A DNA stretch of 32,493 nucleotides, taken from a gamma proteobacterium SCGC AAA007-O20. GTDB lineage: Bacteria > Pseudomonadota > Gammaproteobacteria > PS1 > Pseudothioglobaceae. The notes under the pieces are model-generated. The model was not told where the DNA came from. It ran no database searches and was given only the letters and a program-made list of their open reading frames with translations. Positions 12,094-23,981 of the stretch are shown here, one piece after another. Numbering within the stretch: the first letter of the stretch is position 1; each line of letters begins with the position of its first letter. The position numbers and the translations under genes are program-made. Where the stretch lies: NCBI GenBank assembly GCA_000213395.2, contig AFHY01000009.1:1-32493 (forward strand), in the 5' to 3' direction.

Positions 12094-13368
12094 ATGATAA
12101 AAAATCTTAGCAATAAACTTACTTTCATTGATTTATTTGCTGGATGTGGTGGACTTTCTCTAGGCTTAGAACAATCAGGCTTTTACCCTTTATACGTTAA
12201 CGAATTAAACAAGGATGCCTTGGAAACCTATCTCATGAACCGAGACCAAGAGTACCCTGATTTACGAACCAAATACTTCTCAACTGACATCAAGGATGTT
12301 GTTCTAGATGGTAATTATTTTGAAACACTTTTAGATGATTTTCAAAAGGATTTTAAGCGTGACTTTAGAAAAGATTCAGTTGACTTAGTGGCTGGTGGTC
12401 CACCTTGCCAAGGCTACTCTGGAATTGGAATTAGAAGGTCATATTCTGTTGACAAAAAACAACTTCCTTCTAATCACTTATATGAGGACATGGCATATGT
12501 TGTTCATCAAATCAAACCTAAGATATTTCTCTTTGAAAATGTTGAAGGATTGCTGAGTGCAAGATGGACTAAAGAAGGCGAGAAAGGTGAAATATTCAAG
12601 GATGTCTTGAAAACGTTTCATAATCTTACAGACTACAACGTTAAGCACAAACTGGTTCATGCCAAAGACTATGGAGTGCCTCAAAACAGACCTAGAATTC
12701 TTGTAGTTGGGATCAGGAAAGACATCAAGTTGAAATCAAGTTCTGCAATAGATGCAGTAGAAGGCGGTTTTCTGCCTCAACCTACTAATGATTATCCTAA
12801 TCTTGAAGACGTTCTATCAGACTTGGTTGATGTGAACTTTGAATACGGCGGGGAGTCAGTTACTTATAGTAAGAAACCAATGAATAGCCTTCAAGAGGAT
12901 TACCGTATGAATATCCATTCTGGTACTTTGATGAAGAAAGGGCATGTGCTTACGGAGCAAAAATACAGCAAGCATTCAGATAAAGTGGTTGAAAGGTTTA
13001 CCCATATGATTAATAACAAGGGTCAGATACCTGAGCATCTTAAAACTAAGAAATTTGCACAACGCTTACTCCCTAGAAAATGGGGCAAGAAAGGTCCAAC
13101 GATTACCGTCACCTCATTGCCAGATGACTTTGTTCATTATTCACAGCCTCGTTGTCCTACTGTTAGAGAATGGGCAAGATTACAAGTATTCCCTGATTGG
13201 TATGAGTTCGCTGGAAAAAGAACCACAGGCGGTATAAGGAGAGCAGGTAATCCTCGTGAATCTAATTTTGAAAGAGAGGTTCCCAAATACACTCAAATAG
13301 GTAATGCGGTTCCAGTTAAACTTGCTTTAGCGGTTGGCAAACACTTTCGTTTTATTCTAGAAAAGTAG
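12094..13368 (+). CDS. C5-cytosine DNA methyltransferase (type II R-M)
   Basis: Adds a methyl group to C5 of cytosine in a short recognition site. The conserved motifs are in normal order: FIDLFAGCGG (motif I, 11-20), GGPPCQGYSG with nucleophile Cys105 (motif IV), ENV at 148-150 (motif VI), QNRPR at 197-201 (motif VIII), and a C-terminal QIGNAVP (motif X, about 403-409). The 424 aa are typical. The variable region between VIII and IX decides the target; I cannot predict the site. The next gene, convergent with a 13-bp gap, is the likely cognate endonuclease. Protection of self DNA from that enzyme is the inferred role. Confidence 0.93.
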   Translation: MIKNLSNKLTFIDLFAGCGGLSLGLEQSGFYPLYVNELNKDALETYLMNRDQEYPDLRTKYFSTDIKDVVLDGNYFETLLDDFQKDFKRDFRKDSVDLVAGGPPCQGYSGIGIRRSYSVDKKQLPSNHLYEDMAYVVHQIKPKIFLFENVEGLLSARWTKEGEKGEIFKDVLKTFHNLTDYNVKHKLVHAKDYGVPQNRPRILVVGIRKDIKLKSSSAIDAVEGGFLPQPTNDYPNLEDVLSDLVDVNFEYGGESVTYSKKPMNSLQEDYRMNIHSGTLMKKGHVLTEQKYSKHSDKVVERFTHMINNKGQIPEHLKTKKFAQRLLPRKWGKKGPTITVTSLPDDFVHYSQPRCPTVREWARLQVFPDWYEFAGKRTTGGIRRAGNPRESNFEREVPKYTQIGNAVPVKLALAVGKHFRFILEK

Positions 13369-14507: not shown

Positions 14508-14513
14508 TATAAT
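14508..14513 (+). promoter_or_regulatory. -10 box in front of leader copy 1
   Basis: Perfect TATAAT; the predicted start of transcription (about 14520) falls within a few bases of where the duplicated leader begins. The -35 region is T-rich but not a good match, so an activator may be needed. Confidence 0.5.
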
Positions 14514-14522
14514 GAGTTATAG

Positions 14523-14605
14523 TAAAGGAATGGTTCACCTCACGAACCGGGCATTTGTTCCTTATTGTCGCCCTAGGATTTCCCTTAAAGCACTAAAACG
14601 GAGGT
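14523..14605 (+). promoter_or_regulatory. Duplicated structured 5' leader, copy 1 (candidate cis-regulatory RNA)
   Basis: An 83-nt element ending in the strong Shine-Dalgarno GGAGGT four bases before ATG 14610. Visible structure: hairpin GGTTC (14532-14536) / GAACC (14544-14548) with loop ACCTCAC, then GGGC (14549-14552) / GCCC (14570-14573), and a possible closing pairing of AAGGA with TTCCCTT. Loop bases ACCTC (14537-14541) are the exact complement of GAGGT in the Shine-Dalgarno (14601-14605), which would form a pseudoknot hiding the ribosome site. A second copy stands in front of the next gene. It matches no riboswitch class I can name. Confidence 0.6.
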
Positions 14606-14609
14606 AGGT

Positions 14610-15134
14610 ATGTCATACCAAAACCAATCTGATTCAGACCATTTAAGTATTATTGTAGGGCCACCCGGACCAGACAATATAATAGATTCCGTTCATAATT
14701 TTGCTGCTGAACACAACATCTCTCTGGATGATGCTTGGACAGCATATGTAAAATTCAAGGCGGATAAATTCATCAAGCCTAACGATATTCCTAACGATAT
14801 CGGTTTAACTGATTTCTCTGAAATGTTTACTGATGTATTGGGGAAATACGTTAGAGTCTCAGAGTATTTCTTGACGCATTACGTTCATAGCTTTTCAACT
14901 AATGGAAAATTGTTGACACAGATAAAGGATGTCTCTGAAAGACAGCCTTATTTAGCTCCAGCAATTATCTTTCATGCAAAGAACATTCTAGACGTCAGAG
15001 GGAAGCCAATCAATATCAGGCAGTTTGACAAATTGAAAAGAGAAATGCTGCAAACTTTGATGATTTTCCTTATGACAGCCAGTTGGATTCACGTATCCAT
15101 ATCGTTTGAATATGAGAAGGCTAAAACAAAATAA
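14610..15134 (+). CDS. Unrecognised 174-aa cytosolic protein behind the duplicated leader
   Basis: No family recognised. The protein is mixed alpha-helical in composition, has no signal peptide, and its only hydrophobic stretch is a short one near the C-terminus (LMIFLMTASWIHVSISF, about residues 150-166), which could be buried or membrane-associated. A proline/glycine turn PPGPDN lies near residue 20. The GGAGGT ribosome site is among the strongest in the window but can be masked by the leader loop. It is flanked by the restriction gene and by a Sel1 gene that shares the same leader, so co-regulation with the Sel1 protein is inferred. Lying in the accessory island, it may be phage-defence related or part of a mobile cassette; that is a guess. 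Confidence 0.7.
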   Translation: MSYQNQSDSDHLSIIVGPPGPDNIIDSVHNFAAEHNISLDDAWTAYVKFKADKFIKPNDIPNDIGLTDFSEMFTDVLGKYVRVSEYFLTHYVHSFSTNGKLLTQIKDVSERQPYLAPAIIFHAKNILDVRGKPINIRQFDKLKREMLQTLMIFLMTASWIHVSISFEYEKAKTK

Positions 15135-15145
15135 TGTAGATTAAA

Positions 15146-15227
15146 TAAAGGACTGGTTCACCTCACGAACTGGGCATTTGTTCCTATTGTCGCCCTAGGA
15201 TTTTCCTTAAAGCACTAAAACGGAGGT
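15146..15227 (+). promoter_or_regulatory. Duplicated structured 5' leader, copy 2
   Basis: Differs from copy 1 by three substitutions and one deleted base over about 83 nt. The hairpin is GGTTC (15155-15159) / GAACT (15067+100 to 15171), where a C-to-T change turns a G-C pair into G-T and so keeps the stem. The loop ACCTC (15160-15164) and the Shine-Dalgarno GAGGT (15223-15227) are unchanged, and so is GGGC/GCCC (15172-15175 with 15192-15195). The Sel1 gene starts five bases after GGAGGT. No obvious separate promoter is seen, so it may act in an intergenic RNA read from copy 1. Confidence 0.6.
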
Positions 15228-15232
15228 AGAAA

Positions 15233-15772
15233 ATGAACATTAAACAATTAATAGAAAATGCTGAGGCAGGTGATATGAAAGCTCAGTCGAGCCTAGCCTA
15301 TTTGTATATCGAAGGTGATGGTGTCCCTCAAGATGATGAAAAAGCTTTTTATTGGGTTAAAAAGGCAGCCGCTCAAGAAGATATTTATGCTATGTACAAC
15401 TTAGGCTATTTGTATTGGAGTGGCAAAGGCACTTCACAAGATTACGAAAAAGCTTTTTTTTGGTTTAGCTTAGCAGCTGAAAAAGGACACCTTCCTGCAC
15501 AAAATTACTTAGGAGCGATGTATAGTGATGGACGCGGAGTTGATCAAGACTTTGAAGAGGCTTTTATTTGGTTATCCATTGCTGCAAAACAAAATCATCC
15601 TAATGCTCAATGTCGTTTGGCATTAATGTATATTGAAGGTAATGGCGTACCTGAGTCACTATCAGAAGCGGCACATTGGGCTAATTTAGCCTATGAGCAA
15701 GGTAGTGAGTTTGCTGCTGAAATGATTGATGAATATGAGCTTTCGGGTTATATTGGGCGGTATCACATATAA
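15233..15772 (+). CDS. Sel1-repeat (TPR-like) protein
   Basis: 179 aa built of four Sel1 repeats of 36 residues at about 16-51, 52-87, 88-123 and 124-159, each with the A-x-x-x-L-G/A-x-x-Y ... G-x-G-V ... A-x-x-W pattern. Sel1 arrays are protein-interaction scaffolds. There is no signal peptide, so it is expected in the cytosol, whereas many bacterial Sel1 proteins are secreted. The partner is unknown. It shares the duplicated leader with the preceding unknown gene and is followed by a hairpin and the truncated helicase. Confidence 0.88.
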   Translation: MNIKQLIENAEAGDMKAQSSLAYLYIEGDGVPQDDEKAFYWVKKAAAQEDIYAMYNLGYLYWSGKGTSQDYEKAFFWFSLAAEKGHLPAQNYLGAMYSDGRGVDQDFEEAFIWLSIAAKQNHPNAQCRLALMYIEGNGVPESLSEAAHWANLAYEQGSEFAAEMIDEYELSGYIGRYHI

Positions 15773-15848: not shown

Positions 15849-18191
15849 ATGAGTTTTTTTAATAAAAAAGAGGATCCTGATCTTGCAAGTTTTGTAAATA
15901 AGCTTGCTGGCTACTATTGCAATTTTTTAGAGACTGATTTTAAAAAAGGTCGACAACCAAAGAGAAAGTTTGCTTATAGAGATCGTGCTGATAGAAAAAT
16001 TGGCATCCGCGCATCAAAATATCCTGGTTTTTTAACACTGCTACATAAAAAGGTAAACGAAAAAAACCCAAAAGAATTCAAGATTAAACCTGGAGAATAT
16101 ACATCAACCCTATCAGTAGTAGTTGAGGATTCAATTGCAGCGGCAATAGATACTGTAGATATGAGTCCTTTAGAGAGTCATTTCTCGGCACTTCACGATG
16201 AAGTCTCAAAGGCATTATCTGTGAAAGATAAGGATATTGAAAAGATATTGGAGGGCTTATCAGAAGCTACAAAGAAAATTATTGATCGATATATTATTTC
16301 ACCTGTTTTAGACGTTGTTGGACCAGTTTTTGAAAGACAAAGTACAGCCTCTATAGCTTTAGACCAATTAATTAGTTACTCTGAGGAGATCTCTACTATA
16401 TTAACAAGTAACGCTGAAGAAAGCTTTCCAACAGCCTTAGGAGACTTAGGATTTAGAAAAGATGGTAAAGCTTTAACAGAAATTTTCAATGAGTTACAAG
16501 ATGAAGAATATTATAAAAAAACACTAAAAAAATATTTTTTAGACTTTGTAGCTGCCGATATTTTCACTGAATTTCGTGAACTTCTTACTACACATAGACT
16601 TGCTGAGAATACCCAGTTTTATGTCAATATTGGAGAAGTAAAAGATTCAAAAGGTATCTTTCCGATTTATTGCCTTCCTATAGATATTACTATCGATGAA
16701 GGTAAAGTTTTTCTTTCTTTCGAACCTCTTTTATATGCCAACAAAAAAGCTATTGATTATATGGTTGGACAAATATCGGCAGAACAAGGAATCAGAGCAA
16801 TCAATCCTATAACAGATAGAATTTTTTATAAGTCAGATGACGAAACCTTTATTGATCTCGCTAATAAAACTTTCTACGATATATTAATGGGACTTCACGC
16901 TGAAGGCGAAATATTTTTGACAGAAAAATCAAAAATGATTGCCAAAGGTGCAACTGGTATTACTATTAATAACGAATTAAGCATCTCTCTAGCAGATAAA
17001 TCAGATGAGTCAATAGTAAATGACTATGAAGCACTAATGACTGGCAAGGATGGTGGTGATCAACTTCTCTCAGTATTTTCAAATATTATTGATAACTTCT
17101 TAACAACAAACCCTGTCTCTATTGAAAAAGAAATTGATGACGAATGGATTGATACAGAAGTTACTGAAAGACTGGTTTTTCTTAGCCCTCTGCCACTAGC
17201 AGAAGAACAAAGAAAAATTCTTTCTGCAATTAAAAATAAGGACAGTAAGTTTATTTCTGTTGAAGGACCTCCGGGAACTGGTAAATCTCATACTATTGCA
17301 GCAATAGCGTTTGAAATGATTCTTAAGGGAGAGAATATATTAATTCTATCTGATAAAAAAGAGGCTTTAAACGTTGTAGAAAATAAAATAAATGAGGTGC
17401 TTGAAAAAGTTAGAGGTAAAGAAACAGCATTCGTTAACCCTATATTGAGATTAGGTAAAACAGGCTCAAATTATGCAAATATTATCAAAAATACTTCTAT
17501 TAATAAACTTAAGATAGCAAAGAGAACTTTTGATAGCACTAAAGAAGTGTTTTTCGCTGAATTTGATGAGACCAATGGCCAGCTTAGGAAAGATATTCAA
17601 GACACTACTTTAGCTGGAAAAAAAATTGATATAGAAAAAATCATTAACTTTTATGTTAAAGAGACAAAATTTTTAAAAGATTATCCTGATATTGAAAAAG
17701 TACTCGATCAAGAAGATGATTACTTAGAAATTCTTAGTTCTATGCAAAAATTAGTACAAAACAATAGAGAGTCTTTTTCTAGTCTATTTGTACAAGGAGA
17801 TCTAAATAAATTATCTCAGTATGTTGACTTGGCTGCCATTATTGAAGAAACACCAGACTCTATTTTAGATCTACTTAGACGATACCCAAAAATTAATATA
17901 GATAAAACTGTACAGATTGATCAAATTTTTTCAAAGATCAGAGCTGCAAAAGGACTATTTGGCTATATTTTTGCAAAATCCGCATTAGATAGAATTTCTA
18001 AAAACCTTGAGGAAATTACTGGTGTTTATATTACAAGTCCCCAAAATAAATTTGCTGAATTAGAAGAATTGAGCGCTCTTGCAGAAGAGTTAAATTCAAT
18101 TCTTGTTCAATATGGAAGTGATAACTCAAATATAGAATTATTTAAAGAATTTCTAATTTCAGAACTAAGATTAGATACAGATGAGTTCTAA
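15849..18191 (+). CDS. SF1-like helicase/ATPase, C-terminally truncated
   Basis: A 780-aa, very AT-rich gene. The long N-terminal region (1-450) is unrecognised. Walker A is GPPGTGKSHT at about 473-482, preceded by PLAEEQRKIL (Q-motif-like) and followed by ENILILSDKKEAL (motif Ia-like), the pattern of AAA_11/Upf1-like superfamily 1 helicases. After it comes a charged helical stretch to the end, but no DExx motif II and no motifs III-VI. The frame stops in TAA 18189-18191, overlapping the stop of the convergent transporter. The simplest reading is loss of the helicase core's second half at the island edge; a stand-alone ATPase remnant is less likely to be functional. Confidence 0.7.
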   Translation: MSFFNKKEDPDLASFVNKLAGYYCNFLETDFKKGRQPKRKFAYRDRADRKIGIRASKYPGFLTLLHKKVNEKNPKEFKIKPGEYTSTLSVVVEDSIAAAIDTVDMSPLESHFSALHDEVSKALSVKDKDIEKILEGLSEATKKIIDRYIISPVLDVVGPVFERQSTASIALDQLISYSEEISTILTSNAEESFPTALGDLGFRKDGKALTEIFNELQDEEYYKKTLKKYFLDFVAADIFTEFRELLTTHRLAENTQFYVNIGEVKDSKGIFPIYCLPIDITIDEGKVFLSFEPLLYANKKAIDYMVGQISAEQGIRAINPITDRIFYKSDDETFIDLANKTFYDILMGLHAEGEIFLTEKSKMIAKGATGITINNELSISLADKSDESIVNDYEALMTGKDGGDQLLSVFSNIIDNFLTTNPVSIEKEIDDEWIDTEVTERLVFLSPLPLAEEQRKILSAIKNKDSKFISVEGPPGTGKSHTIAAIAFEMILKGENILILSDKKEALNVVENKINEVLEKVRGKETAFVNPILRLGKTGSNYANIIKNTSINKLKIAKRTFDSTKEVFFAEFDETNGQLRKDIQDTTLAGKKIDIEKIINFYVKETKFLKDYPDIEKVLDQEDDYLEILSSMQKLVQNNRESFSSLFVQGDLNKLSQYVDLAAIIEETPDSILDLLRRYPKINIDKTVQIDQIFSKIRAAKGLFGYIFAKSALDRISKNLEEITGVYITSPQNKFAELEELSALAEELNSILVQYGSDNSNIELFKEFLISELRLDTDEF

Positions 18192-22646: not shown

Positions 22647-23981
22647 TTATTGACTTATTCTGATCTGATCAACTATAATTTCCAGTTCTAAATTATTTGG
22701 TGCGATAAATATTTTTTTTGTTTTTTTATCAAAACCAAAGCTCCAAATAAATTCCTCTTGTTTATGTTCGTGAAACAAATACCATTCACCATTTTCGTGT
22801 TGTTTTAACAACCTAATTGTTCCATAAAAGTCGGCAAATAAAAATAATTCAAAATCATCTAAATAAATACCTGCAGTTAAACATCCCGGCCTCGTAAAGG
22901 TTTCAAAAATTGGAGTTAAAACGTCAATTAATCTATCTTTTCCTATTCTTTTACTTCCCTCATATACTGGCCACCCAAGATTGACTGGCATATTAGAGTA
23001 CAAGTCATCCAATAAAAATGCCGCCTCAACATAATATTGCCCACATTGCAAAACAAACATTCTATTTTTTGAATCAACAGTTACTCCCCAGGGATTTCTA
23101 ATTCCATATGCAATAATTTCGGGCTTTAGTTTTGATTTTGATATATCAAGCCTTAGAATTTTTCCCTTAAGAGAGTTTAGATTTTGAGCTTCATCTGCAT
23201 CATAACCATCTCCTACTGAAAGGTATAACCTTCCTGGTGCTACTTCATGCATTTTATGAAAAATTCCATTGTCTGTTGCCACAATAAATATTTCTTCAGG
23301 TCTAGTGGCTGCAGCCTTAATTAACTGAGTCGTTGATCCAACAACATCTGCAAGAGCAATAACATCTTTGGGTGACTCTGGATGAACCAAAACTGCAGCA
23401 TCAGGGTGGTGTTGCATAAGCCTTTTGAGTCCCTCTGCTTTGAATTCCTCGTGTACAACACAAGCTCCATCCCATAAAAGCATGTCCGCACCAGTCTCCG
23501 TTTGAACGTAGTGGCCTAGGTGCTTGTCAGGTGCCCAAAGTATTTTTTTACCCTCTTTGTGTAATTTCTTAACTATTTTGAGGGCGCTGCCAGATGTCAC
23601 AACCCAGTCAGCTCTGGCTTTGACTTCGGCCGAAGTATTAGCGTAAACGACGACGACATGATCAGGGTTGGCATCACAAAATGCTGAAAAGTCATCGATT
23701 GGACAAGAAAGGTCAAGAGAGCAAGTTGCCTGATCATCAATAACCAGCACTCTCTTTTCAGGGGAAAGAATTTTGGCAGTTTCGCCCATAAATTTAACAC
23801 CAGCAACAACAATTGTTTCTGCGTCACAGTTTTGACCAAATCTTGCCATTTCCAAAGAGTCTGCAACAATACCTCCGGTTTCTTCTGCCAGAGTTTGTAA
23901 ATCTGCACTGACGTAATAGTGGGCCACCAAAGTGGCATGTTTTTCCAGTAGCGCTTGTTTTATGGAGTCTCTAATATTCAT
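22647..23981 (-). CDS. nadA: Chimeric frame: truncated quinolinate synthase NadA fused to a PQQ-type sugar dehydrogenase C-terminus
   Basis: Residues 1 to about 250 are quinolinate synthase A (NAD synthesis): [34 protein letters not shown], cysteines Cys87 ([10 protein letters not shown]) and Cys174 ([11 protein letters not shown]), and VHPESP. Normal NadA then continues to a third cluster ligand in a CRSC-like motif; here the text switches at about residue 251 (near base 23231) to [23 protein letters not shown] and [13 protein letters not shown], the C-terminal blades of soluble aldose/sorbosone dehydrogenases. Two of the three 4Fe-4S ligands remain, so NadA activity should be lost. The dehydrogenase part lacks its N-terminal blades. 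The fused part looks more AT-rich. It lies 30 bp from tRNA-His; an assembly chimera is not excluded. Confidence 0.85.

Follow-up and report, generated by a model that had tools for sequence, protein, structure and literature searches.

The stretch of DNA analysed here (the window, 32,493 nt of a gamma proteobacterium SCGC AAA007-O20 contig) contains a duplicated leader whose two copies lie directly upstream of the start codons of two unrelated genes, one encoding a 174-aa protein and the other a Sel1-repeat protein. The features of the locus are as follows.

12094-13368 (listed also as 12121-13344), + strand: C5 DNA methyltransferase gene of the same island (PF00145, E 1.2e-60)
14508-14513, + strand: TATAAT, possible -10 box of copy 1, from the sequence
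14523-14609, + strand: copy 1, probable SAM-V-type riboswitch leader of the 174-aa gene (RF01826, 27.5 bits, model positions 1-66)
14532-14548, + strand: P0 hairpin GGTTC-ACCTCAC-GAACC, accessory and of putative role, in 15 of 17 aligned homologues
14549-14552, + strand: P1 5' strand GGGC, partner 14570-14573; NGGY/RCCN covaries (GC/AU and CG/UA)
14551-14557, + strand: third strand GCATTTG of the P2 triplex, predicted SAM pocket; matches G5-G11 of SAM-V
14558-14562, + strand: linker TTCCT, whose CC could pair with GG of the Shine-Dalgarno sequence (P2a); CC kept in nearly all homologues
14563-14569, + strand: P2 descending strand TATTGTC, 1 nt shorter than canonical; pairs with 14590-14596, C14591 bulged by the deletion
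14570-14573, + strand: P1 3' strand GCCC, covarying with the 5' strand
14575-14585, + strand: P3 hairpin AGG..CCT; inner pairs in 17 of 17 homologues, outer pair covaries
14590-14598, + strand: P2 ascending strand GCACTAAAA, with T14594 as the predicted adenine-contacting U; conserved with SAM-V G43-A51
14600-14604, + strand: Shine-Dalgarno GGAGG, 5 nt 5' of the ATG at 14610
14610-15134, + strand: gene for the 174-aa protein, of a family found behind this riboswitch in 9 of 9 members
15146-15232, + strand: copy 2, probable SAM-V-type riboswitch leader of the Sel1 gene (RF01826, 22.4 bits)
15155-15171, + strand: P0 hairpin of copy 2
15172-15226, + strand: riboswitch core of copy 2 (P1 15172-15175 with 15192-15195; third strand 15174-15180; P2 15185-15191 with 15212-15218; P3; Shine-Dalgarno 15222-15226)
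15233-15772, + strand: gene for the Sel1-repeat protein, 179 aa (PF08238, E 2.8e-44)

The leader repeat spans 83 nt, with 14523-14605 aligned to 15146-15227. Copy 2 is 95% identical to copy 1, the differences being three substitutions (A/C at 14530, C/T at 14548 and C/T at 14582) and one T indel. The first copy ends just upstream of the ATG at 14610, and the second begins 11 nt past the stop codon of the 174-aa gene and ends before the ATG at 15233. The flanks of the two copies are unrelated, with 30% identity upstream and 37% downstream over 60 nt. An earlier sequence-only reading had described a duplicated leader before unrelated genes, which this alignment confirms; the GGTTC/GAAC(C or T) arms, the ACCTCAC loop, the GGGC/GCCC helix, the GGAGGT sites and the TATAAT at 14508-14513 also lie where it placed them. 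Similar TATA-type boxes occur slightly upstream of the leader in several homologues, and a promoter scan gave no 9-of-12 match for the TATAAT at 14508-14513. No other 40-mer on either strand of the window exceeded 57.5% identity to the leader repeat, and the window's own genome (1.03 Mb, partial) holds the two copies and otherwise a single 14-nt chance match. The repeat is not a product of chance, as it is matched by a covariance model and its homologues were first found independently by BLAST and Rfam. Integron attC sites and other mobile-element ends were considered and rejected: inspection by eye showed no attC core pattern, and on the coding strand an ATG always follows the element.

The best Rfam match of both copies was SAM-V (RF01826), at 27.5 and 22.4 bits. 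The match is collinear along the full length of the model, with GGCAUUUG followed by UAUUGU and then by UAAAGCACUAAAA-GGAG. SAM-V was the sole family matched; SAM-II, which closely resembles the SAM-V type in its pseudoknot core and pocket (PMC6061858), gave no match to the window leaders at E-values up to 5. Both window copies fall below the RF01826 gathering cut-off of 41 bits. A search of the genus with the same model revealed four leaders above it, in G009 (50.9 bits), G004 (48.5 bits), G028 (44.7 bits) and G025 (43 bits), all of which precede homologues of the window 174-aa protein. Considering that the window copies score below the cut-off and leaders of the same gene family above it, we file them as a diverged SAM-V-like variant and not as Rfam members.

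Across 193 related genomes, BLAST found copies of the leader in eight others, seven from the same genus and one from the same family. When 83 genomes of the family were searched with a covariance model built from the homologues (R1), 12 of them yielded 18 leaders in total. The E-values, 1e-12 to 4e-21, are in part a product of construction, since 17 of the 18 leaders found had served to build the model. Homologues with covarying stems, which the sequence-only reading had proposed to seek in this way, exist. Leader identity of 86-96% across genomes suggests selection. Among 369 genomes drawn from the class, the only match besides the window was one of 36 bits in G218. This isolated SAM-V-like match (L256 1526-1595, 34-36 bits) precedes a gene starting MSITRRQFLLSIPAV and belongs to another gammaproteobacterial family. 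RF01826 found nothing at an E-value of 1e-4 in 398 genomes of the phylum, a null that is not evidence of absence, given that no positive control gave a signal and that the two copies of the window also fail that limit. SAM-V is known from marine alphaproteobacteria and Bacteroidetes (PMC6061858), and our literature search returned no paper linking SAM-V with Thioglobus.

Seventeen homologues align well and share an H-type pseudoknot with covarying P1, P2 and P3. Taking P0 to P3 together (n=17), 94.9% of the cells in the 18 pairs of the four helices can pair, versus at most 58% when the strands are slid. The covariation score for the same four helices was 0.243, versus 0.147 +/- 0.015 in shuffled alignments (0 of 500 shuffles as high), and 22 cells were changed on both sides versus 7.6 in shuffles. 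P1 is GGGC/GCCC in the window and AGGU/ACCU or GGGU/ACCC in homologues, while P2 variants among homologues include UUGUGU/ACACUAA, UUGUGC/GCAC and UUGUAC/GUAC. The pseudoknot supported in the window joins UUGUC (14565-14569) to GCACUAA (14590-14596), to which the linker CC adds pairing with the Shine-Dalgarno GG. As in SAM-V, the Shine-Dalgarno GGAGG (14600-14604 and 15222-15226) lies directly 3' of P2, with the ATG 5 and 6 nt downstream, respectively. A duplicated, leader-borne translational switch with a pseudoknot reaching the Shine-Dalgarno sequence, as proposed earlier, is therefore supported. Energy folding of the single leaders gave no signal (z +1.4 and +0.7), which is unsurprising for a pseudoknotted RNA; it favours other structures, among them the minimum free energy fold of copy 2, in which the Shine-Dalgarno sequence is paired to the loop and 5' arm of P0.

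The SAM pocket is also conserved. Both window copies carry the segments GCATTTG, TATTGT and CACTAAAA, and all nucleotides that contact SAM or form the triplex in the metY structure 6FZ0 (PMC6061858) are present in both: U8, U9, U10, A18, U19, U20, G21, U47, A48, A49 and A50. The full P2 of SAM-V (G21-C24 with G43-C46) is absent from the window copies, where P2 is 1 nt short and three of four pairs form (G21-C46, U22-A45 and C24-G43) with C44 bulged. Position 44 is C or U in the window type, as an unpaired base allows. Full P2 helices are present in the leaders of G004, G009, G025 and G028. Six genomes have the shorter form, in a total of eight leaders that include the one preceding O-succinylhomoserine sulfhydrylase. 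Judged by their sequence, the window copies keep all elements that SAM-V switching would require.

The shorter P2, the unusual genes behind the leaders and the scores below the Rfam cut-off would also suit a SAM-V descendant that has lost or changed its ligand binding and now serves as a constitutive strong translation start. Given that the contact nucleotides and covarying helices are all kept, that the same sequence type precedes O-succinylhomoserine sulfhydrylase and that the conservation across genomes points to selection, we regard this as quite unlikely.

The P0 hairpin (GGTTC/GAACC) behaves differently from the core: on its own, its covariation was not above shuffles, and it is missing in G009 and G020, where the riboswitch cores are intact. 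The sequence-only reading had made this hairpin the key, with its loop ACCUC pairing with the Shine-Dalgarno GAGGU as the OFF state and a ligand, a protein or temperature opening it. The loop can form 5 bp with the Shine-Dalgarno sequence in the window-type copies except that of G003; among leaders of a second sub-type described below, that of G019 also reaches 5 bp and that of G028 reaches 4 bp. The fold of copy 2 mentioned above uses this pairing. The complementarity is, however, 2-3 bp in G037, G003 and others; overall it ranges from 2 to 5 bp and barely exceeds that of loop shuffles (p 0.03-0.05). Since P0 neither covaries nor occurs in all leaders, and since the loop model leaves the conserved SAM pocket unexplained, we consider it very unlikely that loop masking is the switch. 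Loop pairing may add to SAM-V switching but is not required.

Likewise, the GGTTC-N7-GAACC palindrome had been suggested as a DNA operator, which for P0 alone could lie by chance beside a riboswitch. GTTC..GAAC is indeed conserved as sequence and not by covariation. Its spacing nevertheless varies between 6 and 7 nt among homologues, it always lies on the coding strand just 5' of the riboswitch core, and two homologues have kept the core without it, making an operator highly improbable. A terminator scan flagged the P0 stem, a candidate we rejected as there is no real U-tract and a gene follows directly.

We conclude that both window copies are, with good confidence, diverged SAM-V-type riboswitches, each controlling translation of the gene behind it. 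They share with SAM-V (RF01826; 6FZ0; Pelagibacter metY, bhmT and mmuM) the H-type pseudoknot with P1, P2 and P3, the GCAUUUG third strand, UAUUGU, CACUAAAA and the adjoining 3' Shine-Dalgarno sequence. Like SAM-V, sister copies of the window leader precede methionine genes. Unlike SAM-V, the elements reside in a gammaproteobacterial host that we take to belong to the Thioglobaceae, carry the extra 5' hairpin P0 and, in the window type, a P2 that is 1 nt shorter, and they stand in tandem, each with its own gene, before island genes of unknown function.

The methionine genes behind the sister leaders are both found in G028, where a window-type leader precedes O-succinylhomoserine sulfhydrylase and a leader of the second sub-type precedes betaine-homocysteine S-methyltransferase. 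Both are classic SAM-V targets. These sister leaders tie the element to methionine metabolism and make SAM the expected ligand. Neither window gene has a known methionine role. Other genes mostly follow the remaining leaders: those of a 147-176-aa protein family to which the window 174-aa protein belongs, of Sel1 proteins, of a 49-50-aa protein and of a SpoT-like HD protein. The 83 genomes encode nine proteins of the 147-176-aa family, and every one of their genes directly follows an R1-matched leader.

In verified SAM-V riboswitches, SAM binding forms the triplex, a short helix, proposed as the occluding one, closes between the linker and the Shine-Dalgarno sequence, and translation is shut (PMC6061858). 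In Pelagibacter, genes with SAM-V rise strongly under sulfur limitation, and abundant SAM leads the riboswitch to block the ribosome binding site (PMC5069961). We infer that SAM is the ligand here too, that it acts as an OFF signal and that the 1-nt-shorter P2 and P0 have a function. Without SAM, P1, P2 and P3 would be formed, the third strand GCAUUUG loose and the Shine-Dalgarno sequence free, leaving translation ON. SAM would bind in the P2 major-groove triplex, with its adenine against the U of CACUAAAA and its sulfonium beside the U:A.U triple. This would lock the third strand, upon which the linker CC would pair with the Shine-Dalgarno GG and turn translation OFF. Most likely, then, SAM turns translation of both genes OFF and low SAM turns it ON, and the 174-aa and Sel1 proteins would be made when SAM is scarce. 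The earlier proposal had the pseudoknot as the off state with a ligand turning translation on; judging from the verified SAM-V homologues, the switch probably works in the opposite sense.

Leaders and proteins do not share the same relationships. The window 174-aa protein shares 65-69% identity with its counterparts in G004 and G009. Its leader matches theirs at only 72-79% but reaches 90-92% identity with the leaders of distant 147-149-aa family members. Conversely, the 172-aa protein of G019 shares 86-87% identity with its G025 and G028 counterparts, whereas its gene has the other leader sub-type, which matches the leaders of those two genomes at 75%. In G027 (L150 7252-7887), a Sel1 gene with a window-type leader starts with the first dozen codons of the unrelated 174-aa family (MSYKNQSDSNHL). 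The mismatch between leader and protein identities, together with this Sel1 start, shows that leaders, sometimes with the first codons, moved between genes. Both SAM-V-type switches in Thioglobaceae and the swapping of their leaders between unrelated genes are new, as are the constant association of the 147-176-aa family with a leader and, described below, a sub-type with coordinated changes at the adenine-contact positions and the closeness of C5-DNA methylases to leader genes.

The second sub-type, which we term GG/C, comprises five leaders: L014 (G019), L011 2420-2489 (G037), L022 (G020), L025 (G028, before the betaine-homocysteine methyltransferase) and L151 6799-6868 (G053). GGUUG replaces AUUUG in their third strand, and CACUCAAAA, with an extra C after U47, replaces CACUAAAA. 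The changes thus fall at third-strand positions 7-8 and beside U47, and U8 and U47 meet the SAM adenine in 6FZ0 (PMC6061858). As the same gene families are controlled, SAM is the likeliest ligand of this sub-type as well. Its adenine site must, by sequence comparison, be built differently, and an altered adenine recognition is possible. One strict GG/C pattern was run over the GTDB contig collection, and its convincing matches were confined to four assemblies from the family.

The 174-aa protein had no match in Pfam or NCBIfam. AlphaFold models of two distant family members (pLDDT 73.5 and 79.2) have a ferredoxin-like fold. For the 149-aa homologue (L167 5052-5498), the better of the two models, the top four structural rows were SAM lyase or SAM-AMP lyase, with Z scores of 7.9-7.3 that lie under the noise line of 8 and a Foldseek E-value of 1.4e-3; the window protein (14610-15134) matched these more weakly (Z 6.0-5.7). 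The catalytic Glu (E69/E71) and Gln (Q104/Q108) of these enzymes are not conserved in the family alignment, which has no invariant Glu and as its sole invariant Gln Q6 in the N-terminal tail. We therefore rejected a SAM lyase identity of the 174-aa protein, which shows a borderline likeness in fold only, lacks the catalytic residues and has no sequence match to solved chains. A SAM-degrading enzyme turned on by low SAM would also be physiologically odd. From the models, it is reasonable to hypothesise a PII-like protein that binds SAM or a nucleotide.

Several leader loci contain integrase-like genes and recurring island genes. Four C5-DNA methylases occur in the 12 riboswitch-bearing genomes, one each in G000 (window 12121-13344), G004 (C3:27245-28246), G025 (C11:9696-10928) and G028 (C1:964249-965472), each at a distance of 0.1-2.2 kb from a 169-176-aa gene under riboswitch control. 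The genus has a fifth such methylase, in G015, which has no leader. The leader-adjacent methylases differ in length and subtype (353, 417 and 424 aa), and we read their proximity as common residence in variable islands; a functional link of the leader genes to methylation or phage defence is speculation. Spread by phages was rejected: viral contigs, scanned with two patterns and one protein profile, contained chance matches or none. The arrangement resembles the sulfur-response genes of Pelagibacter (PMC5069961), where SAM riboswitches and genes also lie in a hypervariable region. The Pelagibacter targets are methionine-pathway genes, whereas here they are mostly uncharacterised proteins, several of them near DNA methyltransferases and integrases.

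The usual view of riboswitches is that of housekeeping metabolite sensors linked to the pathway under their control. Here, a riboswitch class has apparently been uncoupled from its own pathway and put to new use before uncharacterised island genes, as a leader that can be exchanged. This reuse predicts when the island proteins would be expressed, namely under SAM shortage, and the GG/C sub-type, with its coordinated pocket changes, is a natural case in which to test how ligand contacts change in a riboswitch. A broader scenario, which we put forward as unlikely, would see a mobile module in marine Thioglobaceae in which a SAM-sensing leader is swapped between island genes and proteins neighbouring DNA methyltransferases are released upon a collapse of cellular SAM, such as the disarming of restriction by a phage SAM lyase would bring; it would include the GG/C sub-type (GGUUG with CACUCAAAA) as a SAM-V-derived aptamer with a rebuilt adenine site and possibly another sulfonium ligand.

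Two further ORFs of the window deserve mention. A 780-aa AAA/SF1-helicase-like protein (15849-18191) has weak matches to the anti-phage proteins Hhe, MkoA and PDC-S37 and is perhaps truncated at the island edge. By eye, an ORF at 22647-23981 (- strand) resembles quinolinate synthase (NadA) in its N-terminal half and a PQQ-type sugar dehydrogenase in its C-terminal half, and represents an in-frame fusion, a deletion or an assembly join.
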